From the NCBI GenBank assembly GCA_009839505.1, contig VXPO01000129.1, positions 1 to 47,931 of the forward strand: a stretch of DNA of 47,931 nt, given 5' to 3'. A program made the translations under genes and the position numbers. Below, piece by piece: positions 17,799 through 35,280 of the stretch; within the stretch, counting starts at the first letter, position 1; each line of letters starts with the position of its first letter. Origin of the DNA: Gammaproteobacteria bacterium. Its GTDB lineage: Bacteria > Pseudomonadota > Gammaproteobacteria > Pseudomonadales > Azotimanducaceae. The notes below the pieces were generated by a model. It saw only the letters and a program-made list of their open reading frames with translations. It was not told the origin of the DNA and did no database searches.

Positions 17799-17805
17799 GA
17801 TTTTG

Positions 17806-18882
17806 TTGGCCGACCGGAGTTTCGTAGCGGCGACCCTTGTGGTCGCCCCTACGCGATGTGCGGCTCTCGGGACGTGGTGTTGCGTCGCCTTTCTGTCCGG
17901 CCTTGGTGGTTGCGAGGGCGTCCGAGATGACTACCCCCTCGTGCTGCCGCGCGTCGAGACCGTGCCCGTGCCGAGTGCCGGCGATGCAGCCGACGACCCC
18001 GCCATCTGGATCCACCCCGAAGTTCCCGAACGGAGCCTCGTGCTCGGCACCGACAAGCGTTCCGGACTCGTGGTCTACGACTTGGCGGGCGAGCAGGTCC
18101 AGTATCTCGCCGCCGGCAATCTCAACAACGTGGATCTGCGCACCGGCGTCTGGGGACGGCGGGATCTGACCGTCGCCGTCGCCAGCGCCCGGGAGCCGGA
18201 CGAGCTGGTCGTTCTTGAACTCGATCACGAGACCGGCACCGTGCGGGTCGTCGGTCGTGGCGAACCCGTCGTCGATGAGCCCTACGGCATCTGCATGTAT
18301 CTCGACGAGCGTCGCCAGCCATGGGTGATCTTGAACGGCAAGGACGGACTCTTCGTGCAGTTCGAACTGCGCCAGGACTATTCCATCGCCGAGGCTCGGC
18401 GATGGCGAACCGAGACGCAGCCGGAAGGATGCGTGGCCGACGACGAAGCCGGTGTGCTCTACATCGGCGAGGAGAACTACGGGGTCTGGCGATTGCCGGC
18501 CGATCCGGGGGAACCGGCCGATCTGGTTTCTGTCGCTGCCATCGAGGACGGCGTCTTGGCGGCGGATGTCGAGGGGCTGGCGCTGTACCGCTCCAATGAG
18601 GCTACCTACCTGCTGGTCTCGAGCCAGGGCGACAACAGCTATGCCGTGTACGACACCGGGTCGGGTGCCCATCGCGGTTCGTTTCGGGTGGGCGATCACC
18701 CGCACATAGACGAAACTTCCGATACCGACGGCATTGCGGCTTCATCGGTCCCGTTGTCCGGGTTTCCCGACGGCTTGCTGGTCGTTCAGGACGGCGACAA
18801 CCCCGGTGGAAACCAGAACTTCAAGCTGGTGTCCTGGACGGACGTCCGTGACGCCCTGGCGCTGGATCCTCGACCCCTCTGA
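17806..18882 (+). CDS. beta-propeller phytase, predicted lipoprotein
   Basis: About 358 residues. DDPAIWIHPE at about 63-72, then SLVLGTDKRSGLVVYDLAG, GEPVVDEPYGICMY, YIGEENYGVW and DNPGGNQNFKLVSW are the blade signatures of beta-propeller (BPP) phytases, Ca-dependent enzymes that dephosphorylate phytate. A lipobox LGGC, Cys at about residue 36, implies a lipoprotein outside the cytoplasm. The start is uncertain: a TTG at 17806 has AGGA upstream, while a GTG at 17839 would leave a tighter signal peptide but lies inside a palindromic repeat with no ribosome site. It follows the TonB receptor by a few bases, so the two likely form a phytate-use operon. Confidence 0.85.
   Translation: MADRSFVAATLVVAPTRCAALGTWCCVAFLSGLGGCEGVRDDYPLVLPRVETVPVPSAGDAADDPAIWIHPEVPERSLVLGTDKRSGLVVYDLAGEQVQYLAAGNLNNVDLRTGVWGRRDLTVAVASAREPDELVVLELDHETGTVRVVGRGEPVVDEPYGICMYLDERRQPWVILNGKDGLFVQFELRQDYSIAEARRWRTETQPEGCVADDEAGVLYIGEENYGVWRLPADPGEPADLVSVAAIEDGVLAADVEGLALYRSNEATYLLVSSQGDNSYAVYDTGSGAHRGSFRVGDHPHIDETSDTDGIAASSVPLSGFPDGLLVVQDGDNPGGNQNFKLVSWTDVRDALALDPRPL
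17823..17853. repeat. dispersed palindromic repeat, short form
   Basis: GTAGCGGCGACC pairs with GGTCGCCCCTAC around a CTTGT loop with a single mismatch. The same short form occurs at 46343-46368. It shares GGCGACC/GGTCGCC arms with the 42-bp long form. It lies inside the predicted signal-peptide region of the phytase gene, so either the gene starts downstream of it or the repeat is translated. Confidence 0.8.
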
Positions 18883-18929: not shown

Positions 18930-18943
18930 CCGTCTTGGCGGCG

Positions 18944-19480
18944 CTAGCGCGGAGGTTGACCGCGCGGCGCAGACGCTTCGAATATCCAAAGATTCCCTGA
19001 GCTGACCGCTTCCATCGGAACATTTCCGCCGATGTACTTCCGGCCCAACTCGGCAAGTATCGGTACGAGAATCTCTCCCTCCTGGATTCGATCCAGATGG
19101 CGTTCGTAGATTGTGCCGTCGACTCGCAGCAGAACACGTCCGTCCTTCTCGGCCTCGTACGGCCAGTGTTTCCAGATCTTCCCCAGGGTCGTGGTCATGT
19201 AACCGCTCGGGATGAAGATCCGGCCATCGACTTCAACGATCCAGGCAGTGCGGGAACGCTCCGGATTCAGCGATTGAAACTGCACCTCGCTGATGTCGCG
19301 GACGAAGGACCAGTCCGGCTCGTCCCCCGTGTGCGGGCTTCCCGTAGTGAAAGAACCGCCCGCCAAAGGCCCAACAGGCCCGTCGTGGAGACGAGCCGCG
19401 GTGAACACTCCTACGACCAGGACGATGATCGATACGAAAAGCCACGCAATGACCTTGAGGAGAATCTTGACAGCCTTCAC
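18944..19480 (-). CDS. membrane-anchored protein of unknown function
   Basis: A 178-residue protein with one N-terminal membrane segment at about 5-28 and a globular domain outside. The stretch RTAWIVEVDGRIFIPSGY, then LGKIWKHWPYEAEKDGRVLLRVDGTIYERHLDRI, looks like a flavin-reductase-type split barrel of the DUF2255 kind, but I cannot confirm that. The GTG start has AGGG upstream. It converges on the phytase gene, with a palindromic repeat between the two stops, and stands just before the accessory region. Confidence 0.6.
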   Translation of the reverse strand: MKAVKILLKVIAWLFVSIIVLVVGVFTAARLHDGPVGPLAGGSFTTGSPHTGDEPDWSFVRDISEVQFQSLNPERSRTAWIVEVDGRIFIPSGYMTTTLGKIWKHWPYEAEKDGRVLLRVDGTIYERHLDRIQEGEILVPILAELGRKYIGGNVPMEAVSSGNLWIFEASAPRGQPPR

Positions 19481-19514
19481 TTCTGAACCCTGCTACCGCC
19501 GACTTAAGCCGCGT

Positions 19515-19602
19515 CCTCCTCGTGCAGCGTCACCGAACCCGCGTCGCCGTCGATGGTGATGGACTGACCGTGCTTGATGCGCACGGTGCCGTTGCCCACG
19601 CC
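19515..19602 (-). repeat. copy C of the phosphotransferase gene 3' end
   Basis: These 88 bases match 32372-32459, the last coding part of the phosphotransferase-like gene, with two substitutions, in the same orientation. They would encode GVGNGTVRIKHGQSITI and on to TLHEE, followed by a different tail and a stop. Similarity breaks off abruptly at 19603. It marks the left border of the accessory region, 190 bp before the methyltransferase gene. Confidence 0.92.
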
Positions 19603-19718
19603 TAGGATCTGGAGATGCCGTACCCCGTCCCACGCCTGCAGGTTGCAGATGCGGTACCCCGCACTTTAACTGCCTGCTAGGCAGCAACAGAACTGATCCA
19701 GTGCCCTTTGGGTTCTCT

Positions 19719-19792
19719 GGACCGCCTCGATGTGTGTCGTCCGAACGGTCCGCTTTTACGTTCCCCGATGGCAGTCGGTATGATCCACGCCC
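19719..19792 (+). promoter_or_regulatory. promoter region of the defence operon, possibly leaderless
   Basis: TATGAT at 19779-19784 is a good -10 hexamer, but transcription would start within a few bases of the ATG at 19793, and no Shine-Dalgarno sequence precedes that ATG. Upstream, GGACCG at 19719-19724 and CGGTCC at 19746-19751 form an inverted pair that could be an operator. The -35 is not convincing. The rest of 19481-19792 holds only the repeat copy at 19515-19602. Confidence 0.35.
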
Positions 19793-21373
19793 ATGACTGA
19801 AGTGGGGATCGTCGACATCTTCTCGGGCCCAGGAGGTCTGGCGGAGGGTTTTCATCCGGTGTCGGCCGGTCCCGAGTGGCCCTTTAGGATCGCCATGTCG
19901 GTCGAAAAGGATCCTGCGGCGTACCAGACCTTGTTGCTTCGGAGCTTCCTGCGAAACTTCAATGGGACACTGCCTGCCGAGTATTACGATCTCCTAAGCG
20001 GTCGCATTGCTGCGCCCGATTGGAGTGCGAGCTATCCGGCCGAGTGGCATGCAGCAGAGAACGAAGCGAAGTACCTTGAACTCGGAAACCCCACAACGAG
20101 CAGGTTCTTGGCGCGTCGAGTTTCAGAGATTCACGATGCATATGGCGGCAACACGGTGTTGATTGGCGGCCCACCTTGCCAAGCCTACTCACTTGCTGGT
20201 CGTGTTCGGAATGCAGCGATTGCCGGCTACCTGCCCCACAGGGATGAACGCCACCTCCTGTACCGGGAGTACATCAAAGTTCTGGAGCTTTTGGAACCGG
20301 CATTCTTCATGATGGAGAACGTGAAGGGCATGTTGTCGGCGTCGCTGAAAGGGGAGCGCGTACTCGAGAGGGTGATGGCGGACCTTAGATCAGCGACTAG
20401 GTGGGGCTATCGGTTGCATGCCCTTGCACCACCGAGTGGGACGCGGCCTAGCGACGAGATCAGCCCAAGCGATTTCGTTGTCCGAGCCGAGGACTATGGC
20501 GTGCCGCAGTCTCGGCATCGTGTCTTCATTGTGGGCATTCGAGGCGACATTGCCGAACGCCTTCCCTTACGTGTGTGGCCTCGGCTCCGCCGGTCACAGT
20601 CGCCTACGGTCGGGGCTGTGATCGGAGACATGCCGCGCCTCCGTAGTGGCCTTAGTCGAGGAGATGCTTCTGAAGAGTGGCTCGTGCGCGTGAGGGATGC
20701 CACTCAGCTCCTTTGTCGAAATCCTCCCCTCGTGCCGAGGACGGAAGTCCAAGCCTACTGGGCTGAACTGAAGTCAACTGCCGTCGCGTTGCAGGACCGG
20801 CCACCTAGCTCCCGACATGGGAATCGACGATACTCATCACCAGATTGCCCGGTCCGGCTCCGGAAGTGGCTCTTGGACAAACGGGTCCGCAGCTTGCCTA
20901 ACAATGAGACCCGCGGGCACATGCCGAGTGACTTGGCGCGGTACCTGTTTGCGTCCGCGTTCGCGGCGGCTACCGGTCGATCACCCAAGGCATCAGAGTT
21001 CCCTGATGCCCTTTCCCCCAACCACCGCAATTGGCGGACGGGGAAATTCACGGACAGGTTCCGGGTGCAACTTAGAGACCGCCCCGCCACGACAGTCACC
21101 AGTCACATGTCGAAGGATGGGCACTATTACATCCATTACGATCCAACCCAATGTCGGAGTTTGACCGTCCGCGAGGCAGCGAGACTTCAGACGTTTCCGG
21201 ACAACTACATGTTTCAGGGCACTCGTACCGAACAATACGTGCAAGTCGGCAACGCCGTTCCGCCGTTCCTTGCGCACCAGATTGCAAAGTGCTTCGTTCG
21301 TGCGTTCTCCCACCTCGCCAGTCAGAATACTGCCGAGCCTCTGGCAGCTCGTAGGGCTGCGGCTGCCGGATGA
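19793..21373 (+). CDS. C5-cytosine DNA methyltransferase
   Basis: A 526-residue Dcm-type methyltransferase. Motif I DIFSGPGGLAEGF binds S-adenosylmethionine; motif IV GGPPCQAYS contains the catalytic Cys129; motif VI is ENVKG at 175-179; motif VIII is PQSRHRVFIVG near 239; motif X is QVGNAVPP near 484. The gap between motifs VIII and IX holds the target-recognition domain. It methylates cytosine in a sequence I cannot predict, and in this operon presumably marks self DNA. It overlaps the next gene by 4 bp (ATGA). Lower GC and mixed codon use set this gene and the next four apart from the surrounding genome. Confidence 0.94.
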   Translation: MTEVGIVDIFSGPGGLAEGFHPVSAGPEWPFRIAMSVEKDPAAYQTLLLRSFLRNFNGTLPAEYYDLLSGRIAAPDWSASYPAEWHAAENEAKYLELGNPTTSRFLARRVSEIHDAYGGNTVLIGGPPCQAYSLAGRVRNAAIAGYLPHRDERHLLYREYIKVLELLEPAFFMMENVKGMLSASLKGERVLERVMADLRSATRWGYRLHALAPPSGTRPSDEISPSDFVVRAEDYGVPQSRHRVFIVGIRGDIAERLPLRVWPRLRRSQSPTVGAVIGDMPRLRSGLSRGDASEEWLVRVRDATQLLCRNPPLVPRTEVQAYWAELKSTAVALQDRPPSSRHGNRRYSSPDCPVRLRKWLLDKRVRSLPNNETRGHMPSDLARYLFASAFAAATGRSPKASEFPDALSPNHRNWRTGKFTDRFRVQLRDRPATTVTSHMSKDGHYYIHYDPTQCRSLTVREAARLQTFPDNYMFQGTRTEQYVQVGNAVPPFLAHQIAKCFVRAFSHLASQNTAEPLAARRAAAAG

Positions 21374-22848
21374 CCGCAACTCGCCAAGTTCGGCGGAGGA
21401 CGATTCCGCCTAGAGCAGCCGTTCTTGTTGAGAGCTTGCGCGATGTTGGCTACTCGTTACAGACGGCCGTCGCGGATGTCATTGACAACTCGGTAGCTGC
21501 CAAAGCCAGCAATGTCCGGTTGTTTGCGGAGACGCACCCAGACTCGCCTGCGATTGCGATTCTGGACGACGGTTGCGGCATGTCCGAAGAAGAGCTATTG
21601 GAAGCCATGCGACCAGGGTCGAAGAGCCCGCTGGATCGTCGGCCGGTCCACGACTTAGGTCGCTTCGGACTGGGCTTGAAGACGGCCTCGTTCTCGCAAT
21701 GTCGCCAGGTGACCGTGATGACAAGACGGAACGGTAGAACGTCGTGTGCCGTCTGGGACCTAGACGAGGTGGCTTCCGCCGATGAATGGGTTGTTACGTT
21801 GCCGTCTGATTACGCGCAGATTCCTTGGAGTGGCGAACTCGGAGCCACGGGTACGCTGGTTGTCTGGCAGAAGCTCGACCGACTCTTGGTGGCGGTCGAT
21901 GCACCCACAGGTGGAGCGGAGTTGGTTAGGCAGCTGGATGACATGGCGAGACACTTGGAACTGGTGTTCCATCGTTACTTGGCCGGCGAGCGGGGACTCC
22001 GTAGAGTCGACATCTCCTTGAACGGGCAGCGTCTTGAGCCGTTCGACCCGTTTCACTTGCGGCATCCGGCAACGATTCGGGGTCCCGAGGAACGATTTCG
22101 CGTTGGCGGACATGTGCTCACGTTCCAGCCGATGACACTTCCACACCACAGCAAGGTCGCAACGAAGGAATGGGAAAGGTACGCAGGTCCGGAAGGCTAC
22201 ATCAAGAACCAAGGGTTCTATCTCTATCGCGAGCGGCGACTGATCATCTCCGGAACGTGGTTTGGGTTAGCTCGGCAGACAGAATTGACGAAGCTGGCGC
22301 GTGTCCGGATTGACATACCTAACGGACTCGACGCGGAGTGGAAAATCGACGTAAAGAAAGCGTCGGCGCAACCGCCGGCGTCAGTACGAGCCCGGTTGCG
22401 ACGTCTTGTCGAGGAGATCGGCAGTCGCTCAACACGAGTTTACACCGGACGGGGGAGTAGGCTGCAAAGTACGAATCGATTGCCAGTGTGGATCCGATCC
22501 CAGGATAAGAATCAGGTTCGATACGGAGTTGATCTAGAACATCCGGCTCTCGGCCATTTCGTGCGCCAGCTCTCACCGGAAGTGGCGAGTGAGTTCGGCA
22601 AGGTCCTAAGGCTCGTCAGCGCCTCACTACCGGTCGATGCCATCTTTGCTGATGTGGGTTCGGATCCTCGGGCAGTAGCCGGGGTGGCGCTAGAGAACGG
22701 CGAACTGCGTGATTTTGCCAAGAAGATCTACGACACCTTGGTGGCTGCTGGCAGTTCACGTGACGATGTGCTGCTGATGATGTCATCGGCCGAGCCCTTC
22801 AGGGCGAATTGGGATGCCCTCCAGACGCAACTCGACACGCGGGAATAG
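21370..22848 (+). CDS. MORC/MutL-like GHKL ATPase of the defence operon
   Basis: A 492-residue protein with a GHKL (Hsp90/MutL-type) ATPase domain: AVADVIDNSVAA at 34-44 with Asn40, DDGCGM at 66-71, GRFGLGLKTAS at 97-107. A second domain with GFYLYRERRLIISG and WKIDVKKASAQPP carries the Lys expected in the S5-like transducer fold. It belongs to the prokaryotic MORC-like ATPases that occur beside DNA methyltransferases and nucleases. It likely acts as an ATP-gated clamp or sensor on DNA. Start overlaps the methyltransferase stop; its stop is one base before the next ATG. Confidence 0.85.
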   Translation: MTATRQVRRRTIPPRAAVLVESLRDVGYSLQTAVADVIDNSVAAKASNVRLFAETHPDSPAIAILDDGCGMSEEELLEAMRPGSKSPLDRRPVHDLGRFGLGLKTASFSQCRQVTVMTRRNGRTSCAVWDLDEVASADEWVVTLPSDYAQIPWSGELGATGTLVVWQKLDRLLVAVDAPTGGAELVRQLDDMARHLELVFHRYLAGERGLRRVDISLNGQRLEPFDPFHLRHPATIRGPEERFRVGGHVLTFQPMTLPHHSKVATKEWERYAGPEGYIKNQGFYLYRERRLIISGTWFGLARQTELTKLARVRIDIPNGLDAEWKIDVKKASAQPPASVRARLRRLVEEIGSRSTRVYTGRGSRLQSTNRLPVWIRSQDKNQVRYGVDLEHPALGHFVRQLSPEVASEFGKVLRLVSASLPVDAIFADVGSDPRAVAGVALENGELRDFAKKIYDTLVAAGSSRDDVLLMMSSAEPFRANWDALQTQLDTRE

Positions 22849-22849
22849 G

Positions 22850-25555
22850 ATGGAGAACGTCAAGACCTTGAAGGAGATGGTTGGTGCCGTGCTAGCACAG
22901 CACCCCACGAGGCCGACGCCGGAAGATATCAGGGAACATATAGAGCGAGTGCGCCTAGCGTATCCCGTGTCGGATTCAGAGGCTGAACAGCTAGCACGGG
23001 AATTCGAGGCAATCCATGGCGTGACTATGGACCTTGGCTCTGTGTTGCAGGCCGAGGAGTTCGAGCCTTGGCTCGGTGACGCTAAGGCCTTGATCGATCC
23101 CTACTACTGGGAGCGCTATCGGCGGTTGCTTGCTGCGCAAGGATTCTCATCCCAGGTCTTGGGTGGCTTGGACGACGTCACGGACCGGGTTCTGGGGTTG
23201 ATGGGGAACCCGCTAGAGGAAGGGCGTTGGGACCGTCGAGGAATGGTTGTAGGTCATGTGCAATCTGGAAAGACAGCCAACTACACAGGCCTAGTCTGCA
23301 AAGCAGCGGATGCGGGCTACCGCGTGATCATCATCATCGCGGGCATACACAACAACCTTCGCAGCCAGACTCAAGCGAGAATTGACGAGGGTTTTGTTGG
23401 TTTCGACAGCGCGAAGTTGCTATCTAGCAAGCCTGGCCACGGCTGGGTTGGCGTAGGGCGCTTCGACTCGACTAGGAGACCTAGCGTATTCACGAACACG
23501 TTGAAGGACTTCCATCGCTCGACTGCCGTTAGCGTTGGAATACCCTTGGACAACCTGTCCGAGCCGGTGGTGTTCGTGATTAAGAAAAACACTCACACGT
23601 TGCGCAATCTGGTCGGTTGGCTAAAGGAGCACAACGCGCAAAGGGGGATGGCATCGATCACGCAACCAATGCTTCTCGTAGACGACGAGGCCGATAACGC
23701 TTCGATCAATATAAAGCGTGGCCGCGATGAGGTATCTCGTATTAACGGGCAGATCAGAGAGTTGCTTGAAGTGTTTGATCGAAGCGCGTATGTCGGATAC
23801 ACCGCTACACCTTTTGCCAACATATTTGTTGACCCCGACGACGCCGACGACATGTTCGGTCAAGATCTGTTTCCCCGAGACTTCATCGTTAGTTTGGACC
23901 CTCCAAGCAACTACTTTGGACCAGTTCGAGTTTTCGGGAACGAAGGTGATGACGGCGTTGTCCGTTACGTAGACGATAACGAAGATGTCCTACCTATCAG
24001 ACACTACATTGACCACATGGTCGTAGCGTTGCCGGACAGTCTGAAGCGCGCTGTACGGACATTTGTGCTGGCACGAGCCGTCAGATTGGTCCGTGGAGAG
24101 GATAACTCGCACAATTCAATGCTCGTCAATGTGTCTCGATTCAACAATGTGCAGAAGCAAGTTCGAAATGAGATCCAAGAGTTTCTCAACGGCATTGCGC
24201 GCAGTGTGCGCATTAATGGGGCGTTGACATCTGCCATTGCAACTGACCCCGAGCTGGCTAGCTTGGTGGCAGTGTTCGAAGAGGAATTCGCTGGAAACAT
24301 CCCGGAGTCGTGGGCTGAGCTCCAGGCTGTGCTGCGAGAAAGCGTTAGCCCCGTGAGCGTCGTAGAGATTAACAGCCAGTCTTCCGGATCATTGGACTAC
24401 GCGGATCATAGGAATGGACTGAACGTAATTGCAGTAGGCGGTTTCTCGTTGTCACGGGGCCTGACGCTTGAAGGTCTGATAGTGAGCTACTTCTTGCGGA
24501 ACTCGATGATGTACGACACGCTCATGCAAATGGGCCGGTGGTTCGGTTACAGGCAAGGATACGATGATTTGTGTCGTGTGTGGATGCCCGAAGAAGCGGT
24601 CGGTTGGTACTCACATATAACGGACTCGGTGGAAGAGTTGCGTGAAGAGCTGCGTCGAATGGAGGCCGCAAACGCCACGCCACAAGAGTTCGGGTTGAGG
24701 GTAAGGAGCCATCCAGACAACCTCATCGTGACCGCTAGGAACAAGATGGGGTCCGGGCAAAGGCACACAGTTTCGATCGGATTGGCGAACCAGTTCGTTG
24801 AGACTGCTGTGCTTCGAAGGGATGAAGAGAGTCGATCAGGAAACTACAGTGCGGCCATTGCGTTTGCCGAACGCTTGCGTGGTCAAGCACTGGCACCAGA
24901 ACAGGGGGAAGTGGTCCGCGGCGGTCGGCTTATTCGGAACGTACCGGCGAATGTCGTACTGGAGTTTATCGGTAGTTTTCGGAATCACGAGGGGTCGCAG
25001 TTGACGGACCCGGGACCGGTGGGCATGTATATCGAGAAACGCGCAGCAACTGAACTTTCGATGTGGGACGTGTACTTTGCCGGCGTGCAGAGTGCTTCGG
25101 CGTCGTCGCTGTTGGACCGAGGTCTAGGCTTCGATTTGGTGTGCCAACGCCGCGCTCCCGGCGTTCGCAGCGACGCGCAGACCTTATTGGTCACCGGCAA
25201 GCAGCGAGTCTCGTCACGTGGCATTGAACGAGTTGGTTTGAGCCCGGCCGAGGTGGGACGTGCCGAAGGTGCCTACCGTCGAGAGCCGGGACGAGTAGGG
25301 CAAACAGGACTACCCAACTATCCCGATCGGATATATCGAGCAGTTCGCGTCCGTCCCTTGCTAGTGGTCCATTTGCTCGCGATCGGCAAGCGCGACGATG
25401 ATTTGAGCGACGCTAAGCCTTTTGTTGCTTGGAGCATCAGCTTCCCCGCAACACAACACGAAGAAGTGAAGGTTGAGTATGTCGTGAATCAGACTTGGTT
25501 CAGTGAGCGCTACCCGGACGACTTGGATGAGGACGCAGCGGGGGACGATGACTGA
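22850..25555 (+). CDS. Z1-domain helicase-like protein
   Basis: A 901-residue protein of the Z1-domain family. Walker A GHVQSGKT lies at 135-142 and a literal DEAD Walker B at 279-282 (LLVDDEAD). Further motifs include YVGYTATPFANIF, and SRGLTLEGLIVSYF with LMQMGRWFGYR near 530-570, resembling SF2 helicase motifs V and VI. In these operons Z1 proteins are thought to be DNA translocases that feed a nuclease. The ATG follows the previous stop by one base; an extended frame upstream overlaps that gene and was not used. The last bases overlap the PD-(D/E)XK gene. Confidence 0.88.
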   Translation: MENVKTLKEMVGAVLAQHPTRPTPEDIREHIERVRLAYPVSDSEAEQLAREFEAIHGVTMDLGSVLQAEEFEPWLGDAKALIDPYYWERYRRLLAAQGFSSQVLGGLDDVTDRVLGLMGNPLEEGRWDRRGMVVGHVQSGKTANYTGLVCKAADAGYRVIIIIAGIHNNLRSQTQARIDEGFVGFDSAKLLSSKPGHGWVGVGRFDSTRRPSVFTNTLKDFHRSTAVSVGIPLDNLSEPVVFVIKKNTHTLRNLVGWLKEHNAQRGMASITQPMLLVDDEADNASINIKRGRDEVSRINGQIRELLEVFDRSAYVGYTATPFANIFVDPDDADDMFGQDLFPRDFIVSLDPPSNYFGPVRVFGNEGDDGVVRYVDDNEDVLPIRHYIDHMVVALPDSLKRAVRTFVLARAVRLVRGEDNSHNSMLVNVSRFNNVQKQVRNEIQEFLNGIARSVRINGALTSAIATDPELASLVAVFEEEFAGNIPESWAELQAVLRESVSPVSVVEINSQSSGSLDYADHRNGLNVIAVGGFSLSRGLTLEGLIVSYFLRNSMMYDTLMQMGRWFGYRQGYDDLCRVWMPEEAVGWYSHITDSVEELREELRRMEAANATPQEFGLRVRSHPDNLIVTARNKMGSGQRHTVSIGLANQFVETAVLRRDEESRSGNYSAAIAFAERLRGQALAPEQGEVVRGGRLIRNVPANVVLEFIGSFRNHEGSQLTDPGPVGMYIEKRAATELSMWDVYFAGVQSASASSLLDRGLGFDLVCQRRAPGVRSDAQTLLVTGKQRVSSRGIERVGLSPAEVGRAEGAYRREPGRVGQTGLPNYPDRIYRAVRVRPLLVVHLLAIGKRDDDLSDAKPFVAWSISFPATQHEEVKVEYVVNQTWFSERYPDDLDEDAAGDDD

Positions 25556-26549
25556 CCAAGACGATCCGTGGGCGATGATTGAGCCGCCAAGCCATACCGC
25601 CGTCGTGAGCGGTCAACGCGTGGACCCGGACTTGCCTTGGGGTATTTACTGGGCGGTGGACTTGGATAGGCGGTGTCTTCTCGTTCTCCGGCATGAGAGG
25701 GAGAGCAAGCCCGAAACCAAACTGCCTCGACTAAGGGGACTCGAGGTTGAATCGAGGAATCCGGCGAGCGTGCCGTACCATTTGCTTGTGCTCAGGCTAC
25801 TTGACGGAGAGCACCGAGAGATTTTCCATCGCCTGTGCATAGACATCGTCTCCGCGACACAAGATGCAGTATCCGAAAAGGAGGCGGTTGCGTTGTTCCT
25901 CGGGCGAACGTGGCGGTGGCACCGGCTGCTCCAAGGACGTCGCCCGGACCGTCTTTCTGACGAAGAGCAGAAAGGGCTGATTGGCGAGTTGTTGGTCCTG
26001 CGCGACATGCTGTTCCCGATCTCAGGTGTTGAGACGGCGCTGCGATCGTGGACTGGACCAACCGGAGCTCCTAAGGACTTCGAGCTCGGGACTGTATGCA
26101 TCGAGTCCAAGGCACGACGCGGTGCTGCGACTCCCCAAGTAGCCATTGCATCCGAGGTGCAACTAGACACGAGCGGTATAGACGCCTTGTATCTGCACGT
26201 GGCCGATATCACGGGTGCGCCTTCAGGCGTGGGTGGAGCGGTAACGATATCGGATGTCGTTGTGTCGGTCGTTAGTGAAGTGGCAGCAAAGGCACCAGCC
26301 TTGACCGATCTCCTTGATCAGCGCCTGCTGTCCGCGGGATTTGACGCGGAAGTCGACTACTCTGACTCTAAGTGGTTGGTGGGTACGGTTCATGTGTTCG
26401 AGGTCCGGGATGGCTTCCCTAGGATCTCGACAGTCGATGTTCCTGCGGGCGTGCGGGACTTGCGGTACTCAGTTTCTTTAGCCGACTGCGAGCCGTTTCG
26501 TCTTGAACTCGGCGACCTCAAAGTTCGGCTTAAGGAGGCCATCTCGTGA
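25548..26549 (+). CDS. PD-(D/E)XK motif protein (DUF4420-like nuclease)
   Basis: A 333-residue protein. GLIGELLVLRDM at about 143-154 supplies the helix Glu (Glu147), and GAPKDFELGTVCIESKA at 173-189 holds Asp177 and Glu186-x-Lys188, the classical restriction-nuclease core. It is the probable DNA-cutting subunit of the operon. The ATG at 25548 overlaps the Z1 stop by 8 bp and has GGGGGAC just upstream. Its own stop overlaps the GTG of the AIPR gene. No mutation of the catalytic residues is seen. Confidence 0.85.
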   Translation: MTDQDDPWAMIEPPSHTAVVSGQRVDPDLPWGIYWAVDLDRRCLLVLRHERESKPETKLPRLRGLEVESRNPASVPYHLLVLRLLDGEHREIFHRLCIDIVSATQDAVSEKEAVALFLGRTWRWHRLLQGRRPDRLSDEEQKGLIGELLVLRDMLFPISGVETALRSWTGPTGAPKDFELGTVCIESKARRGAATPQVAIASEVQLDTSGIDALYLHVADITGAPSGVGGAVTISDVVVSVVSEVAAKAPALTDLLDQRLLSAGFDAEVDYSDSKWLVGTVHVFEVRDGFPRISTVDVPAGVRDLRYSVSLADCEPFRLELGDLKVRLKEAIS

Positions 26550-28621
26550 GCAGTATTGATCTCCAAGAATTCGGCCGCCAGCTCTTTCAGGATGTCTTGG
26601 CGGAGGCGGATTCGGCTGGGCGATTCGTCGAGGATGTGTTTTTCGAGATGTTCTGTGCCTATCTAATCGAGGCAGGCGAGGTCGATACCGGCGATAGAGC
26701 CGACTACCGAGGACCTCGTGGCAGTGGAATCCGTGTTGATGGTTACGGTGGAGACCCATTGGAGGCTGAGGGAACGCTCAGTCTAATTGTGTTGGAATTC
26801 GATCAATCGGACGAACCGGGACGACTGACGAACACGGAGATGGAAGCTGCATTCCGCCGTGTCACGAACTTCGTCCACAAGGCACTCGACGCTGCTTGGC
26901 GCGACAGCCTAGAGGAGACCGACCCGGGCTTCGGACTGGCCGATCTGGTTGCGACACGATGGCCCGACATACGCCGCATTCGGATGTTCCTGCTCACGAA
27001 TCGAGTGCTCAGCGAACGGGTAGACGGTCGTCCAGCGGACCGTTTTGACGGAAAGGCAATCACCTACAGCGTATGGGATGTGGTCCGGCTGCACCGGTTT
27101 GCCGTGGCTGGAAGGGGGAAGGAGGACATTGAGATAGACCTTGAAGGTGAATTTGGCGCAGCGTTGCCCCTGCTGCCGGCTCATCTACCATCGGATGAGT
27201 ACGCCGCGTACTTGGCCGTAGTACCGGGTCCGCTGCTGGCAGAGATTTACGATCGTTGGGGGGCTCGTTTGCTCGAGCAAAACGTCCGCGTGTTCTTGCA
27301 GGCAAGAAGCAACGTAAACCGCGGGATACGTCGCACGTTGGAGCAGGATCCGAGTATGTTCCTTGCTTACAACAACGGGATTACGGGTACGGCTCAAGAA
27401 GTGACCACGAGGGCCGAGGATGGACAACTGTCGCTGACGAGGATGAAGAACTTCCAGATCGTTAATGGTGGCCAGACAACCGCTTCAATCCATGCGGCGC
27501 TCCGCAGCAAGGTCGACCTTTCACATGTCTTTGTGCAGATGAAGCTATCCATCGTCGACTCAGATCGAGCCGAGGAGATCGTACCGAAGATCTCCGAGTA
27601 CGCCAACAGCCAAAACCGGGTCAACGCGGCGGATTTCTTCGCCAATCATCCGTTTCATGTGCGAATGGAGGAGTTTTCGCGTCGGCTATATGCCCCTTCG
27701 CCTGATGGAGAGTTCCGGGAGACGAGGTGGTTTTACGAACGTGCGCGAGGCCAGTACCAAGACGCCCGCGGTTTGCTCACACCTTCGCAGCGACGTCGCT
27801 TTGATCTAGAGCACCCACGCTCGCAGCTCTTCACAAAGACAGATTTGGCGAAGTTCGACAATGTATGGCGAGGCCAACCACATGTCGTCAGTCTGGGTGC
27901 CCAGAAGAACTTTGCACAGTTTGCGGCATATATCGGGGGAGCTTGGGAACGAAACCAGAACGAGTTCAATGAAGGCTGGTTCAGGCATGCGGTGGCGAAG
28001 GCGATTGTGTTCAGATCGACGGAGAAGCTCGTGTCTGCGCAGTCCTGGTACGAAGGGGGCTACCGGGCAAACATCGTTGCGTATGCGATTGCGAAATTGG
28101 GCCACGACGTGGCTGCACTAGATAGAGTGGTGGACTTCGAGGTTATTTGGCGTCGGCAAGCCCTCAGTGACGTGATGGCGGAGGCGCTAACGGGCGTCGC
28201 AGAGGAAGTCCACGAGGTATTGGTCGATCCGCCTACGGGCATCAGCAACGTGACAGAGTGGGCCAAGAAGCAGGCGTGTTGGAGCCGAGTCCAATCGATT
28301 GAGTCGGACTGTGCCTCAATTCTACTTCCAGAGCTGATCACCAAGGCCGAAGATCGCGATGCTGCTCGTGGTGCCAGGCGCGATCAGAGGGTACTCAACG
28401 GGATCGCTGTACAGAAGGCGGTTGTGGAGGCGGGGCCGGCGTTCTGGAGGGAGCTACTCCAATGGGGCGAAGAAAACGGCTCCTTATCGCCCAAGGAAGC
28501 GGGCGTGCTGACGGTGGCAACCCGCATGCCGGCAAAGATCCCGACGGAAGGTCAGTCGAAAGTGGCGTTCGAAGTGGCTCAACGACTTTGGCAAGACGGT
28601 TTCCCGAAGGCGCTGGAATGA
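26546..28621 (+). CDS. AIPR family (abortive infection phage resistance) protein
   Basis: A 691-residue AIPR protein. Recognised by NVRVFLQARSNVNRGIRRTL followed by FLAYNNGITGTA near 265-285, then FQIVNGGQTTASIHAAL, and YANSQNRVNAADFFANH. AIPR proteins occur in abortive-infection systems and at the end of operons with Z1 and PD-(D/E)XK genes; their biochemical role is not settled. The GTG start overlaps the previous stop (GTGA). It is the last gene of the unit; a decayed copy of the phosphotransferase 3' end begins about 210 bp downstream. Confidence 0.88.
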   Translation: MSSIDLQEFGRQLFQDVLAEADSAGRFVEDVFFEMFCAYLIEAGEVDTGDRADYRGPRGSGIRVDGYGGDPLEAEGTLSLIVLEFDQSDEPGRLTNTEMEAAFRRVTNFVHKALDAAWRDSLEETDPGFGLADLVATRWPDIRRIRMFLLTNRVLSERVDGRPADRFDGKAITYSVWDVVRLHRFAVAGRGKEDIEIDLEGEFGAALPLLPAHLPSDEYAAYLAVVPGPLLAEIYDRWGARLLEQNVRVFLQARSNVNRGIRRTLEQDPSMFLAYNNGITGTAQEVTTRAEDGQLSLTRMKNFQIVNGGQTTASIHAALRSKVDLSHVFVQMKLSIVDSDRAEEIVPKISEYANSQNRVNAADFFANHPFHVRMEEFSRRLYAPSPDGEFRETRWFYERARGQYQDARGLLTPSQRRRFDLEHPRSQLFTKTDLAKFDNVWRGQPHVVSLGAQKNFAQFAAYIGGAWERNQNEFNEGWFRHAVAKAIVFRSTEKLVSAQSWYEGGYRANIVAYAIAKLGHDVAALDRVVDFEVIWRRQALSDVMAEALTGVAEEVHEVLVDPPTGISNVTEWAKKQACWSRVQSIESDCASILLPELITKAEDRDAARGARRDQRVLNGIAVQKAVVEAGPAFWRELLQWGEENGSLSPKEAGVLTVATRMPAKIPTEGQSKVAFEVAQRLWQDGFPKALE

Positions 28622-29365
28622 CCGTAGGGCTGTCGGTGGTCGGATCCTCGCACAAGCACATGCCGAGGGTTCGTGGGGGCATGGTGACGCGATTGTCGTC
28701 TCTCGTTTTCGTCCCACCGGTAGGGTGAGAACCGAATACGACGGCGGCTAGGCTTGGGCCAAAGGGCTCCTTCCCTATGTGAGCCACAAACGCCCGAGCG
28801 GGACCTGCTAGGCGCTTGCAGTCGACCGCTCCCGTGCAGCGTCACCGAGCCCGCGTCGCCGTCGATGGTGATGGACGGCCCTACTTGATGCACACGGGCG
28901 CCGTTGCCCACGCCGAGCCGCAGGAATCCCGTACTCTCGTGCCACGTTCTGCGAGGGCCGCGTAAGCCGAAGCGCCGACCGGGCCCGCCGACTGCGCCGT
29001 ACTTCCAGCGCCCGTGCCGACTTCGCGAAGTGCCGCATCGACCTCGTCGGCACTCGGCCGTTCCATTGCGCTCCCTCTGGGTAGACGGAGGCAGCGGGTT
29101 CGGCCGAGTTCGATACACGTGCCGAGCACGTCGGCGTCCGTGGACGCCCTGCCGCCCCGTCGGCTCCAGTGGAACGGCGTCGTCGATGCCACCACCGCTC
29201 CGCGAGAGCCGAGTTCAGGAGCCTCTACAACGGTCACCTCACGGTCGCGGGTGTCCCCCGCGGTCGCGCCAGGTGAGATTATCCGAAGGGTCGCTCGAAG
29301 TCGAAGAGGAATGGCTCGCATACAAGACCACGAACGCACCTTGTCGACGTGGACCGCCTGATCGC
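28622..29365. other. gene-poor decayed stretch after the defence operon
   Basis: Apart from the repeat copy at 28833-28946, I see no coding region that resembles a protein. Overlapping open frames on both strands are Arg/Pro/Ser-rich composition shadows. Most likely debris from insertion and deletion events. Confidence 0.5.
28833..28946 (-). repeat. copy B of the phosphotransferase gene 3' end, decayed
   Basis: Bases 28833-28876 are identical over 44 bp to the end of the phosphotransferase-like gene. Beyond that, recognisable similarity with small indels continues to about 28946, reaching the codons for AREYGIP. Same orientation as the intact gene and as copy C. It sits between the defence operon and the transposase remnant. 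Confidence 0.88.
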
Positions 29366-29740
29366 TCAGTGCCAAGGGTAGCGCAGCCGGTCGTAAGGGG
29401 TCATGAGGTCGGCGGCGAGGTACTTGGGCCGGATCCGGCCGTTTCCGTCGCGGTACTCGGTGGCGAACGGACAGGGACGGTGGAAGTTGAGGAACGGCGA
29501 GAGCGTGCCTGAGCAAGACGGTTGACCTCCGGTGCGAATTCGCTGCGGGATGTGGTCGTGCCGAACCACCTGCGAATGACGTTGGCGTTCTTGCCCTCGA
29601 CCAGCATGTTGTCGTTGGAGCGGCGGAAGCGGGACTTGGTGAAGCGCTCGACACGCAGCTTGTCGAGCAGCCGGGCGACGCGGTGGTTGATGTACTCGCT
29701 GCCGTTGTCGGTGTGGAAGCCGAGGATGGGAAGACTTCGT
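29366..29740 (-). pseudogene. DDE transposase remnant (integrase core, frameshifted)
   Basis: In one frame FHTDNGSEYINHRVARLL and TKSRFRRSNDNMLVEGKN (about 29718-29570) are the second and third catalytic blocks of an rve-type DDE transposase. The sequence continues in another frame with PFLNFHRPC, then KYLAADLMTPYDRLRYP (29490-29369), the usual C-terminus of the same family. The frameshift lies near 29500-29520. The N-terminal helix-turn-helix and the first catalytic Asp are missing. It cannot be active. No terminal inverted repeats were found. Confidence 0.82.
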
Positions 29741-30028
29741 CCCCTTGGCGGAGAAACGCTCACAAGGTCAATTGGGTGCCGACTTCGAGCGCGAGCGGGT
29801 TATCGTGGCGACAATCAATCTGGGCGAGGTGGGCTTCGGTATCCTCCTGCCCACCCGACGAAAGCGTGAGGCGACCTTGACAATACGTGCCTACGTTACG
29901 TGCCTACGTTCGGCCGGTGACGCACGGTTGGTACCACGTGAAGCGGCGCACTGAGCCGGGCTCGAGGATGTTAGTGAGGGACCCGGACAGATCATCAGCC
30001 ACCGAAGCGGATAGAACGTTCGAAGTTC
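29741..30028. other. non-coding stretch between transposase remnant and three-gene operon
   Basis: No gene, hairpin or repeat that I can support. It contains a short tandem repetition near 29886-29910 (tacgt motifs) that is too short to interpret. Confidence 0.4.
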
Positions 30029-30463
30029 TCATTCCAACGACTTCACGATGCGGCCTACTGCACGCGCAGCGCGATTCAAACGCTGCGGATCTGGCAACCA
30101 TTGGGCTTGTTGAAAACAACCCCCAGTCGCTGCGTCCCACAAAGAGAGCCGGTCCGATCGTGTGGCATCCCTCGCCCGCCGCACCCGACGAACCTGTTTG
30201 GCCAACACCACCAACTCAATGGAGATGGTCCTCTGAGCTGCAAGGAGTCGGGCTTCTTTGCGCAAGCGGGCCTCTCCGTCGACGCCACCCGACCAATAGT
30301 CCGCAACCAAGTCCAGATAGTCGTAGAACGCATGCCTTAGGGCACTTACCCGCTGTAGTCGGGCACCCAGTTTGTACTGGAGGTAGTGGCTACCGAACAA
30401 CCCAAAAGCCGCGCCCGATAGGGCGCCGAGAATGGCTGGGAGGGACTGTTCAACGAGGTTCAA
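30029..30463 (-). CDS. small membrane-anchored protein, third gene of the GHKL/STAS-like operon
   Basis: A 144-residue protein with one N-terminal membrane segment at about 9-27 (ILGALSGAAFGLFGSHYL) and a basic, helical cytoplasmic part (RRVRRARDATRSDR). Not recognised. A TTG start overlaps the stop of the STAS-like gene, giving the same tight coupling as the pair upstream. The position suggests it is an effector or membrane anchor for the ATPase/STAS-like pair, but nothing in its sequence shows an activity. Confidence 0.5.
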   Translation of the reverse strand: MNLVEQSLPAILGALSGAAFGLFGSHYLQYKLGARLQRVSALRHAFYDYLDLVADYWSGGVDGEARLRKEARLLAAQRTISIELVVLAKQVRRVRRARDATRSDRLSLWDAATGGCFQQAQWLPDPQRLNRAARAVGRIVKSLE

Positions 30464-30819
30464 CCCTCGGCCGCCCGTTGAATGTACCGAAGCGCCAGTT
30501 CAACGAAGTCGTCTAACTCGTGATCCGCCCCGGCGGATATCTCGAGACATTCGTCGAGACGCTCCTTGCTGTAGCCATCGACTCTCACTAGGCCGCCGAA
30601 CGCCTCGTCTAGGAAGGAGGAACCCAAACCAGCGACGCCTTCGAAGGTCACGATCAAGTGCCCCGCGGGCTCTAGGGCCTGCAACGCAGGCACGAGAAAG
30701 TCCTCGCGGAAGCGCGTGCCGTTGAATTCCCCGTCATCGTGAAAACGTCCGGCCGGGAAGGGCGAGAAGTCGTCTGCCACGGATAGCTGCTTGTCCTTGG
30801 GTTGCTGACTGTTCATCAT
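30460..30819 (-). CDS. STAS-like domain protein (DUF4325)
   Basis: A 119-residue protein that fits DUF4325: DDFSPFPAGRFHDDGEFNGTRFRE, then GVAGLGSSFLDEAFGGLVR at about 61-79, where the GSSF serine corresponds to the phosphorylatable position of STAS anti-anti-sigma factors. STAS domains bind GHKL kinases in partner-switching modules. The gene begins with ATGATGA and overlaps the stop of the GHKL ATPase gene, and ends overlapping the small membrane protein gene. The coupling supports a physical ATPase/STAS-like pair. Identification rests on pattern recall, without a profile search. Confidence 0.75.
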   Translation of the reverse strand: MMNSQQPKDKQLSVADDFSPFPAGRFHDDGEFNGTRFREDFLVPALQALEPAGHLIVTFEGVAGLGSSFLDEAFGGLVRVDGYSKERLDECLEISAGADHELDDFVELALRYIQRAAEG

Positions 30820-31886
30820 TGGGTGCTCACGTCCCAGACTATGAGTGTGCCATATAGGGATTTTTGATGCGTAGTCAAGCGTTGCGTGGTCTTGCCATCA
30901 GGTCCGACCTCGTAGATGTACTCGCCTTTCAGGCTGATCACGCGGTACCTCGCACCACCACGGATTCCGTTCAAGTAGCCTCGCACATCTCGTCGTAGGC
31001 CCTGTCCTCGGTATGGTTTGGCACTCGCGCTCCGGGAAAGTTCATGGGCCGCTTGGATCATCCTCGCGTGATCCCTACCGAACGTGGCGAGCAGCCTTTC
31101 GTCCAGTCTTGCAGGCAGTGTCTTCGGTATTCCCTGCCCTTGGTCGTAGATCATGATCGTGACCCGTTTCGCAGCGGCGTTGTACGATGCAGACAACCAC
31201 CAGTTGGGTTGGCGCACGGTGCCCGTGTAGGCGTGTTGCACGACGTTGGTCATTGCCTCCGTCACGGCACCGTAGAGTTGGCGTCTTCTGGGTACGGCAC
31301 CAACAACGGGTTCCAGGTCAACCTCACGTAACTGGTGGATTGCTTCGCCGTCGGCGAGGTTTCCTGTCCGGAACATGACGTAACGAGTGTCGGGGTCGAC
31401 GTCATCCCCGAACAGGTCTGACTGCGGAGTCGTGGCCAGCAGCTCGAAGAATCCCATGTCGCGGAGTTGGCACCGGACATTGGGGTCCCACGAGGGCAGA
31501 TCGACCGGCCTCAAACGACCTCCGACTCGTATATGATTCCACCGGTCCAGCTCTGCAGCGAGCACTAACGCGGCTGTTGGCGAGAGCCTTCGGATGTTGG
31601 CAAAGTCAATGTAGGTTCTCTCGTTACGCTGGCGTCGGCTAGCGGATCGGATCCCATGAAGGACTCCTACGACCTCGTCGAAGTTCGTCTCGAGCGAGAA
31701 GTCTGCGGGGCAAGCAATGGGCCTGTCGTACCGTTCGTCCCCGATGACCCTTACCTCCCGGGGCCGACGCCCGTGGAGGCTCCGTAGCAGAATCTTCTTC
31801 TTGCGCTTGGAAACCAATCGCCGCGCGTTCAACTTTGCGGCGTGGATCCTGTTCCGTCTGCGCGACTTCGTGCTCGGCTTCTTCAT
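30816..31886 (-). CDS. GHKL ATPase (anti-sigma kinase or signalling type)
   Basis: About 356 residues. An N-terminal basic patch (SKRKKKILLRSL) precedes a middle domain (FANIRRLSPTAALVLAAELDRWN) that looks STAS-like itself. The C-terminal GHKL ATPase shows YGAVTEAMTNVVQHAY (N box), IMIYDQGQGIP (G1 box) and YRGQGLRRDVRGYL (G2 box). This resembles RsbW-type serine kinases rather than histidine kinases, as there is no dimerisation His. Start at the ATG at 31886; an upstream GTG would add an odd Ser/Arg/Cys-rich tail, and no ribosome site supports either. First gene of a three-gene operon inside the accessory region. Confidence 0.75.
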   Translation of the reverse strand: MKKPSTKSRRRNRIHAAKLNARRLVSKRKKKILLRSLHGRRPREVRVIGDERYDRPIACPADFSLETNFDEVVGVLHGIRSASRRQRNERTYIDFANIRRLSPTAALVLAAELDRWNHIRVGGRLRPVDLPSWDPNVRCQLRDMGFFELLATTPQSDLFGDDVDPDTRYVMFRTGNLADGEAIHQLREVDLEPVVGAVPRRRQLYGAVTEAMTNVVQHAYTGTVRQPNWWLSASYNAAAKRVTIMIYDQGQGIPKTLPARLDERLLATFGRDHARMIQAAHELSRSASAKPYRGQGLRRDVRGYLNGIRGGARYRVISLKGEYIYEVGPDGKTTQRLTTHQKSLYGTLIVWDVSTQ

Positions 31887-32354
31887 GGCGCGGGGGAACA
31901 GTCCAAGTCCTTTGGAGCAAGCCGCGTAACATAGCAGCCGGGGTGCACGCCAGCATCTGCTTGACGTCGAAGAGGGCACAACCGTAACAAGGAGACTCGC
32001 GAGAACGCGCTGGCGTAACCACGTGGCAGGAGCCGCCTGCTGAACGTGCTCACCCGCTCTTCCGAGGTCTTCTGGGACAAATCCCGGCCATCGGAAGTTA
32101 AAGCAATGCTAACCGCATAGGTTCAGGAACCGCCGTTTGATCTGTTGGGCGTGGACTTTGGCCGCGAGCACGACCGCATCTGGTCGGGTTGGGATTCGAA
32201 GGGTCGCTTCGTCGAGGAAGGCGCGGAGTCGGGTCGGTGCGTGGACCGAAAACCCGCTCGAAATGCCAGAAAAACGCGAACCGACTAGGCGGAAGTGGGG
32301 CCGTCACCAGAATTGACAATCTCTTCTCATTGGCCGATACCGGTGGAAATGCAG
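31887..32354. other. intergenic stretch between the accessory region and its host gene
   Basis: The promoter for the GHKL operon must lie here, but no convincing hexamers were found. I see no protein-like open frame, RNA fold or repeat. Confidence 0.4.
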
Positions 32355-35156
32355 CTAAGGATGCGCCGTCCCCTCCTCGTGCAGCGTCACCGAGCCCGCG
32401 TCGCCGTCGATGGTGATGGACTGGCCGTGCTTGATGCGCACGGTGCCGTTGCCCACGCCGAGCACCGCGGGGATTCCGTACTCCCGTGCCACGATGGACC
32501 CGTGCGCCAGGATGCTGCCCATGTCGGTAACCAGACCCACGGCGTGGGCGAACAGTTGAGTCCACGCGGGGGTGGTGTTCGGGGCGACCAGGATCGAGCC
32601 GGGCTCCATCTTGTCGAAGTCGTTCTGCGACAGGATGACGCTTGCCGGGGCGGTCACCGTTCCGGAACTGACGGCGAAGCCGTTGAGCCCGTCGCTGGAT
32701 TCGTCGTTCCTGATCTGGGTTTCCTTGAACCGAACGGAAGGGATGTTGCTCGCCTCCTCGGGCATCGTCCCCGGCGGATGCAGGAGCTTGCGTGCTTCCC
32801 GGAGCTCGCGCCGCTCGGCCGCGAGTTCGCCCAGTTCAGGGAGGCCTGTGCCGGTCTTGCGGGCCTCGATGGCTCGCTTCAGTTCATCGGTCACCAGGAA
32901 GAAGGTGTCTTCCGGGTCGAGGAAGGTCCCCGCGTCGACCATGCGCCGACCCAGCTCGAATGCCATAGGCCGCAGCACGGACCAGGTGTAGCCGAAGTAG
33001 AAAGCTGTCTCTTCGCGGATGTGGTTGTATCGACGTCCGAACCACAGACGGTATCGGAACTGCCAGTAGGTGAGTCCCGATAGCTTCTGTGAGACTTCCT
33101 CGAATTTCTTGCCCCGAACCGCCGTGGCCCGAGCCTCCTGATCCTTCGGATCGTAGTTCGCGTTCTGCACCATCGACTTCAAGGTTGCGAACGTCGCCGA
33201 CGGGTCTTCGGCTTGCGTTGGCTCGACGAAATCGAGGCTGTACCCCTGGTGCCCGTAGACGTCGAAATAGTCGTCCAGCGCCTTGAGGATCGGGGCGCCC
33301 TCGGCATGTTCCTGCAACGCGCGCGACAGGAACTGCGCGGGCGTCACGATGACGAGGTAGGTCAGCGCCTCGCTGGCGCGGACGAGCTTCGCGATTTCGA
33401 ACAGGATGGCATTGGCCTGCAGTGTCTTGGACTCGAAGCCGGTGAGGAATTGGCCGCTGATGTATCGGTCGTCCGGCAGGTTCTCGTGAAGGAAGCATTG
33501 CAGCTGATCGTCGGTGGACTTGGCGATTCCGAAGGTGTGGCTGGTATTGCCGGTCCAGTAGGTTCCTTCCTCGATCGCCATCTCGCGGATACCGGCCAGC
33601 AGCTCTTCGTCGGTGGCGTTGTGTGGGTCCACCTTGCGCCATTTCTCGGCGGTGCCGACCAGGCGGGGCAAGGCTTCTTCTTGCCAGGTCTGCCAGCGAG
33701 CGTCGTTGTTCTGGGTCTTGTTGTTGGCGACGTATGTCGGGTTGTCCGATGGCGGCAAAGTCAGATCATGGGCCAGGTTGTCGCCTTCGTAGGTTGCGGC
33801 GACGGCATCGAACTCGGCTTGTTCTTCTGCCGTGAGCTCCGAACGAAACAGCGCCATGTCGTATTTTTCTTCCGCCGACTGATCCCCGTGACGTTCCCAG
33901 ATCTCGTCGATCGTCCGCTTGAAAGCTGCTTGCAGCTCTTCCTCGGACGCATTGGGATCGATTCGGTTGCTCGGGTGATCGGCCCGGCAATAGGCGTAAC
34001 CGTTGCAGGTCATGAAGGCTGGTCCGCCGCCGGGCATCATGCTGGGCCTGTGCTTGCGCGGCGCCTCCAGGCCCTCGGTCAGGTAGAGCTCCTCGAAAAG
34101 CGGACAGATCGGGTCCGGCATGTTCTCGACGATCTGGCGTCGGTAGAGGATTCTGGCCGGGGGCGGTGGTTCCCAGACCACCTCAATGGGTTGTACCGGC
34201 AGGTTGGTAATGGGGCGTGATTGGAGCAGGTAGAGATCGTCGCCGACGACCGCCCACTCGATGTCCTGCGGGACGCCGTCATAGAGCTTCTCGATGTCGA
34301 TGGCGGTTTTCGACAATTGCTGCAGCATGTCGTCGGTCAACGAGGACTTTCCTCGATTGGCTTCGTCAACATCGGCGAGACGGGTGCCCTGACTACCGTG
34401 GGCGACCACTTGCTGCTCCTTTGGACCGATGATGGTTTCCTTGGCGCGCAGGTTCTCCTTGTCGACGATGTAGGTGTCCGGCGTGACCTGCCCGCTGACC
34501 ACGGCTTCGCCGAGACCGAAGCTGGCGTTGACGATGATCTCCGAGCGCTCGCCCGTGGCGGGGTTGGCGGTGAACAGGATGCCGGAGACTTGGGAGGACA
34601 CCATGGCCTGGACCACTACGGCCATGGCCACCGAGCCCTGATCGATGCCGTTCTGGTGTCGATAGCTGATGGCTTGCGGTGTCCACAGGGAAGCCCAGCA
34701 GTTGCGCACGGCGGCGACGACCTCGTCCGTACCCGTGACGTTCAGGTAGGTCTCCTGCTGACCCGCGAAAGACAGCCCCGGCAGATCTTCGGCATTGGCG
34801 GAGGAGCGCACGGCGACGGGTGAGTCGTCGAGCGAGCCGTAGGCCTGGCTGATCTCAGCAGTGATCTCGGCGGATGGATCGTATTCGGCGAACAGTGCCT
34901 GTATCGCGGAGGACGCCTGCTCGAAGGACACTCGACCATCCACCACGGCGGGTCTAGCGAGCGCCACGATCTTCTCCTGGAGTTGATTGGTCGAAACGAA
35001 GGAGCGGTAGGCCGCCGCCGTAACAATGAAGCCACCGGGAACGTTGAAGCCCGCCTTTGCCATCCTGGCAAGGGATCTTCCTTTCCCTCCAACGACTTCG
35101 AGGCCATCGTCGGCGTCGGTATGGTGCGGCGTGGCCTCAAGGGGGGTGATGTACAT
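32355..35156 (-). CDS. rifampin phosphotransferase-like / PEP-synthase-related enzyme
   Basis: About 933 residues. The N-terminal third is a PPDK/PEP-synthase ATP-grasp domain: GGKGRSLARMAKAGFNVPGGF, AVRSSANAEDLPGLSFAGQQETYLNV, then EWAVVGDDLYLLQSRPIT. A long middle domain follows. The swivelling phosphohistidine domain is at the very C-terminus: GSILAHGSIVAREYGIPAVLG, with catalytic His near 885. There is no PEP/pyruvate barrel after it. This order (ATP-grasp, substrate domain, His domain) is that of rifampin phosphotransferases, not of PEP synthase. It probably phosphorylates a small molecule with ATP. The last 88 coding bases recur at 28833 and 19515. The start was set at the ATG; a TTG 18 bases upstream is possible. 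Confidence 0.82.
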   Translation of the reverse strand: MYITPLEATPHHTDADDGLEVVGGKGRSLARMAKAGFNVPGGFIVTAAAYRSFVSTNQLQEKIVALARPAVVDGRVSFEQASSAIQALFAEYDPSAEITAEISQAYGSLDDSPVAVRSSANAEDLPGLSFAGQQETYLNVTGTDEVVAAVRNCWASLWTPQAISYRHQNGIDQGSVAMAVVVQAMVSSQVSGILFTANPATGERSEIIVNASFGLGEAVVSGQVTPDTYIVDKENLRAKETIIGPKEQQVVAHGSQGTRLADVDEANRGKSSLTDDMLQQLSKTAIDIEKLYDGVPQDIEWAVVGDDLYLLQSRPITNLPVQPIEVVWEPPPPARILYRRQIVENMPDPICPLFEELYLTEGLEAPRKHRPSMMPGGGPAFMTCNGYAYCRADHPSNRIDPNASEEELQAAFKRTIDEIWERHGDQSAEEKYDMALFRSELTAEEQAEFDAVAATYEGDNLAHDLTLPPSDNPTYVANNKTQNNDARWQTWQEEALPRLVGTAEKWRKVDPHNATDEELLAGIREMAIEEGTYWTGNTSHTFGIAKSTDDQLQCFLHENLPDDRYISGQFLTGFESKTLQANAILFEIAKLVRASEALTYLVIVTPAQFLSRALQEHAEGAPILKALDDYFDVYGHQGYSLDFVEPTQAEDPSATFATLKSMVQNANYDPKDQEARATAVRGKKFEEVSQKLSGLTYWQFRYRLWFGRRYNHIREETAFYFGYTWSVLRPMAFELGRRMVDAGTFLDPEDTFFLVTDELKRAIEARKTGTGLPELGELAAERRELREARKLLHPPGTMPEEASNIPSVRFKETQIRNDESSDGLNGFAVSSGTVTAPASVILSQNDFDKMEPGSILVAPNTTPAWTQLFAHAVGLVTDMGSILAHGSIVAREYGIPAVLGVGNGTVRIKHGQSITIDGDAGSVTLHEEGTAHP
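32372..32459 (-). repeat. copy A: native 3' end of the phosphotransferase gene, repeated twice elsewhere
   Basis: The native copy of the 88-bp segment found at 19515-19602 (two differences) and, in decayed form, at 28833-28946. All three point the same way, as expected for attachment-site-like duplications at the 3' end of a target gene. Confidence 0.9.
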
Positions 35157-35280
35157 GGATCGCTCGACTCTCAATGGGATCCCCGATCTTAAGGGAACCC
35201 TTCGGCGACCGACCGACGACGTCCCGTGAATCCCGGAGGAAGATCACCCGAAAACGGGTTTTGCATGCGCGATCAGACGT

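Follow-up and report, generated by a model that had tools for sequence, protein, structure and literature searches.

We propose that two foreign modules integrated in tandem at the 3′ end of a PEP-synthase-like gene (P) of a gammaproteobacterium, each with a replacement for the gene end, and we give this reading a probability of roughly 0.6. The evidence comprises three direct copies of the gene end (A, B, and C), a gene-side boundary that B and C have in common, an uninterrupted junction in one relative, and a cargo that is poorer in G+C than its flanks. The window, meaning the whole stretch of DNA analyzed, covers 47,931 nucleotides of contig VXPO01000129.1. Its relevant features are listed below.

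18944–19480, minus strand: open reading frame (ORF) adjoining C; in relative G006, a homologue at L053 10397–10924 comes immediately after the P 3′ end
19515–19634, minus strand: copy C, the displaced, probably native 3′ end
19793–21373, plus strand: C5-cytosine DNA methyltransferase (domain and defense-profile match)
21370–22848, plus strand: MzaB-like HATPase (homology)
22814–25555, plus strand: MzaC-like Z1-domain protein (homology)
25503–26549, plus strand: MzaD-like PD-(D/E)XK protein, DUF4420 (homology)
26546–28621, plus strand: MzaE-like AIPR protein (homology)
28823–28946, minus strand: copy B, a decayed 3′-end copy with frameshifts, 44 bp of it identical to A
29404–29799, minus strand: IS3-type transposase remnant, rve core fragment (weak match, under the cut-offs)
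30032–30499, minus strand: small open frame with no family match, possibly membrane as judged by eye
30463–30897, minus strand: STAS-like DUF4325 frame (Pfam)
30816–31979, minus strand: histidine-kinase-like ATPase, RsbW-like (under curated cut-offs, the HATPase match just below that of Pfam)
32372–32493, minus strand: copy A, the functional P 3′ end, with the block common to B and C (sequence comparison)
32355–35174, minus strand: P, PEP-synthase-like, 939 amino acids, with PPDK_N and PEP-utilizers mobile domains (domain matches)

Copies of the gene end

The initial annotation had described three direct copies of one gene's 3′ end, all downstream of the host gene and in its orientation, and sequence comparison found the same three again. 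Its figures were also reproduced: 32372–32459 and 19515–19602 differ at 2 of 88 positions, and 28833–28876 in B is exactly identical to 32378–32421 in A over 44 bp. When positions 19001–32300 of the window were shuffled 200 times, the best match to the 88-bp block 32372–32459 was 44/88. The description of this block as the last 88 coding bases needs correction, as 14 coding bases and the stop codon of P lie past it. The repeat is likewise longer than 88 bp. The block common to all copies measures about 118 bp (P 32378–32493, C 19521–19634, and B 28833–28946 in the alignment) and the homology reaches 32493 in P, 19634 in C, and 28946 in B; the 88-bp stretch is its best-conserved part. A DNA search of the whole 4.70-Mb genome gave five matches; besides the three copies, they are gene ends, one at 77% and one at 75%. 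A tblastn comparison of P with the window found no further significant piece of the gene, only the 3′ end being repeated.

Copy C is in frame across its last codons (about the last 34) to its own stop (...GDAGSVTLHEEDAA), which fits the expectation for a recently displaced working end. Copy B is frameshifted and more decayed. The gene-side ends of the two agree at A 32493, give or take a base or two; in the 30 bp past this boundary, just 9 positions in B and 7 in C are the same as in the gene. An alignment of the copies with their flanks had been proposed as a check; it yielded this common boundary, and the flanking sequences showed no similarity above chance in four comparisons.

Divergence is unevenly distributed in C. 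Of 116 alignment columns, the first 34 hold nine of its 11 differences from A (permutation p 0.026), and over 83 bp the two copies differ at 3 sites, compared with 5 to 16 sites between A and eight sequences from relatives. The differences in B, also 11 in number, are not significantly clustered (p 0.29). The conserved part spans 44 bp in B and about 82 bp in C, so that its limits differ. Judged from these sequences, the uneven divergence of C, its in-frame state, the common boundary, and the lack of other P fragments fit recombination inside the gene end in which a replacement end is brought in. At least one variant, a CTG in ...ACGCTGCACG, is present in A, B, and C and absent from the eight relative sequences; the supposed replacement end is therefore not clearly foreign.

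Cargo modules and recombinases

The contents that the initial annotation had assigned to the two modules were broadly borne out by profile matches. Between C and B, homologues of MzaB, MzaC, MzaD, and MzaE form one operon with the C5 methyltransferase, as expected of the MZA anti-phage system; they differ from it in that all four proteins score below the NCBIfam equivalog cut-offs. On this homology, cargo 1 resembles a divergent relative of the MZA system, with a putative role in defense. Among the papers listed in a literature search by MZA names, none concerned the system, as judged by titles. The operon genes are preceded by a spacer of 158 bp and followed by one of 201 bp. MzaC is present in 5 of 199 other genomes of the family, with a best identity of 61%. 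In one genome (G003, L141), the methyltransferase, MzaB, MzaC, and MzaE all have DNA matches that keep the order of the window, and MzaD was recognized by eye; in 20 kb of this locus, the one direct repeat found at 25 bp or more is a pair at 71%, and it leaves the operon unframed.

Between B and A, the ATPase, the DUF4325 frame, and the small frame (30032–31979) are possibly an uncharacterized accessory or defense module. PADLOC gave no match on the cargo 2 frames scanned, and the HATPase protein had one partial match among 57 other genomes. An IS3 element was considered as the mover of the modules and rejected because IS3 leaves short target duplications. The two cargo regions have a G+C content of 0.576 and 0.610; the flanks stand at 0.641 and 0.659, and P at 0.625.

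The statement that no tyrosine or serine recombinase is left in the window was upheld by a profile search of its contig, which contains no PF00589 or PF00239 match. The genome as a whole has 13 PF00589 matches and one PF00239 match, the latter on contig C39. Three successive PF00589 tyrosine-recombinase matches occur at 845–3280 of contig C31 of the same genome. Pfam scans covered selected frames, 10 in one scan and 8 in another; the ORF at 18944–19480 had no Pfam match.

The locus in relatives

The five near relatives found are gammaproteobacterial metagenome-assembled genomes; from the isolate codes, we take them to come from sponges. An empty site with a single gene end had been suggested as a check, and one relative gave an uninterrupted junction: in G006 (L053), the P 3′ end runs straight into a homologue of the ORF that lies beside C. 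Window 18942–19634 aligns there as a single block to L053 10926–10196, and window 32365–32687 aligns to L053 10327–10019. Given this junction and the same ORF beside C, the native end is most plausibly C, and the cargo parts P from its former neighbor. The uninterrupted junction occurs in 1 of the 15 genus relatives examined, where P itself is decayed to about 309 bp. The ORF has matches at E ≤ 1e-8 in 5 of the 15 other genus genomes; its homologue adjoins the P end in G006, and the stretch examined of G015 contains no such end.

Gene order around P varies between relatives. At three loci (L037, L038, and L040), P adjoins homologues of a TonB receptor and a phytase, has a single 3′ end within the fetched stretch, and is followed by another gene, YihY-like by eye. 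In the window's own genome, the YihY block sits elsewhere, on contig C151, and the 16 kb examined there contain no P match, which indicates that the region was rearranged as well. The family of P-like genes is large in these genomes, with up to 15 matches per genome among the matches listed. Such genes are multiplied in G148, G160, G060, and G170, with at least 13 to 15 matches each.

Cargo-free relatives carrying several 3′-end copies had been named as evidence against integration. Orphan ends without cargo do occur in three relatives, G006 (L053 10019–10327), G160 (L112 9792–10091), and G148 (L113 8272–8111, minus strand), one per place; the count is at least three, since the protein matches listed across 200 genomes are incomplete. 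The orphans start near residues 830, 835, and 883, compared with about 895 for B and C. Ten places with short frames were inspected: L112 and L113 are orphan ends within a contig, L117 is a full gene, and the other seven are broken or run off contig ends.

A DNA search of the genus (16 genomes including this one, up to 40 candidates scored in each) listed 34 places: the three window copies, the G006 orphan, 28 that overlap P protein matches, a broken gene at a contig end (L115), and one uninspected place (G015:C3). The corresponding search of the family (206 genomes including this one, no more than 4 candidates scored in each) listed 50 places, 44 of them in gene-length frames or matches; the other six are the three window copies, G006, L115, and G238, the last unchecked. 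No second framed cargo was present among the genus and family places checked. The proposed hotspot is thus unsupported: among the 50 family places listed, the extra end copies are just those of the window and G006, and different cargo between repeats was not seen in the family places checked. Searches for carriers of the P end gave 7 phage records, all below 60% identity, and 74 plasmid records, 71 below 60% and 3 at 60–80%; in viral contigs, one search pattern gave no exact match, and no relative of the end was confirmed.

Discussion

We suggest that the cargo modules integrated successively through recombination within the terminal ~120 bp of P and that each arriving DNA brought its own version of the P end. 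The incoming end would replace the old one, so that P stays intact and the previous end is pushed away. Copy C would then be the original end beside its old neighbor, B the end displaced at the other junction, and A the end now in use by P. The recombinase genes may have been lost or may act from elsewhere, and the remainder would accordingly be a tandem resembling cis-mobilizable elements. We infer site-specific recombination, the order of events, and the former mobility of the modules. Of the initial interpretation, the integration of elements that bring a replacement for a gene's 3′ end gives the best fit to the G006 junction, the common boundary of B and C, and the low G+C of the cargo; the hotspot part is unsupported by the places searched.

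Several results count against this reading: no recombinase was found in the contig, the junction occurs in a single relative with a decayed P, another gene follows P at L037, L038, and L040, the flanks of the copies are not alike, no second example was seen in the places checked, A, B, and C have a variant in common that the eight relative sequences lack, and B has no significant mosaic. The limits of conservation also differ between B and C, where a single integrase would be expected to use the same crossover point. Together with the mosaic of C and a contig in which no recombinase was found, these limits would favor homology arms in place of att sites: a 3′ fragment of P traveling with a module would have recombined with P by RecA-type homologous recombination, and modules entering in this way would never have had a recombinase. 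We consider this unlikely. A common gene-side boundary is unexpected for random fragments, and the longest exact runs between the copies (27, 35, and 44 bp) are short for efficient RecA recombination. A portable form of such arms, in which the ~118-bp ends let recombinase-free defense modules swap at P through a recombinase acting in trans or through host recombination, appears improbable; it would make the metabolic gene a cassette-like exchange site that needs no recombinase of its own.

The orphan ends and the lack of a second framed cargo among the places checked keep gene decay, as well as plain homologous recombination, among the rivals. B and C might descend from complete paralogues of P, in tandem or dispersed, of which decay spared the 3′ ends while cargo gathered between them. 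The size of the P-like family, the cargo-free orphans, and the dissimilar gene order near P among relatives agree with this idea. It is nevertheless doubtful, and somewhat less likely than homology arms, since the window holds no other significant P fragment, B and C have one boundary where the orphans start at three different residues, and C is near-identical to A over 83 bp yet diverged across the adjoining 34 columns. A draft genome in 181 contigs, with five near relatives assembled from metagenomes, also brings assembly error to mind. This is very improbable: the longest exact match between copies, 44 bp, is under the usual final assembly k-mers, and the junction of C with its ORF is seen independently in G006.

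Integration in tandem at the end of P has counterparts in known systems. In E. coli K-12 (PMC11148124), the prophage e14 sits near the 3′ end of icd, a metabolic gene whose frame is kept intact upstream; on the far side of the insert, the displaced end, icdC, is a 165-bp copy of the gene end that differs by 12 exchanges. The P locus is similar in having gene-end direct repeats on both sides of the insert, an intact metabolic gene, and an uninterrupted site in a relative, although this is one relative with a decayed P, and L037, L038, and L040 differ downstream. Unlike e14, a cryptic prophage with a putative integrase gene, intE, the P locus consists of two tandem modules, and no site-specific recombinase gene was found in it. 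The ssrA islands of Dehalococcoides (PMC3146451) are likewise arranged in tandem between 3′-end repeats of one gene, and 15 of 31 have no integration module. They differ in that the target is an RNA gene, the repeat is 20 bp, and a serine recombinase is known from sister islands; at P, the target is a protein gene, the repeat is a ~118-bp block, and no recombinase was found. CIMEs (PMC5704250) are elements that keep their att sites, have lost integration and transfer genes, and accrete in tandem; the P locus may resemble them in its repeats with a common boundary, its tandem order, and the recombinases not found, any att role of the repeats and any mobilization being putative. The locus looks like a new, decayed example of this known kind of genomic island, its membership incomplete because no recombinase was found in the contig and the att function is putative.

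In the papers listed by a narrow literature search, a PEP synthase gene was not named as an integration site. Our results suggest a PEP-synthase-like gene as an insertion target and show a defense-type operon parked at the gene end as a minimal unit. If further strains had other cargo within the same boundaries, P would be a defense-exchange site in this gammaproteobacterial group; the present data describe one decayed locus.

Two minor observations concern the surroundings of P. A short REP-like sequence with a core of about 30 bp lies at about 11044–11138 of L053 and has many matches in the genome of the window (among 40 matches listed). The TonB-receptor and phytase genes switch sides of P among relatives with their orientation kept (window 14997–18882 compared with L037, L038, L040, and L053), as if by duplication and differential loss.
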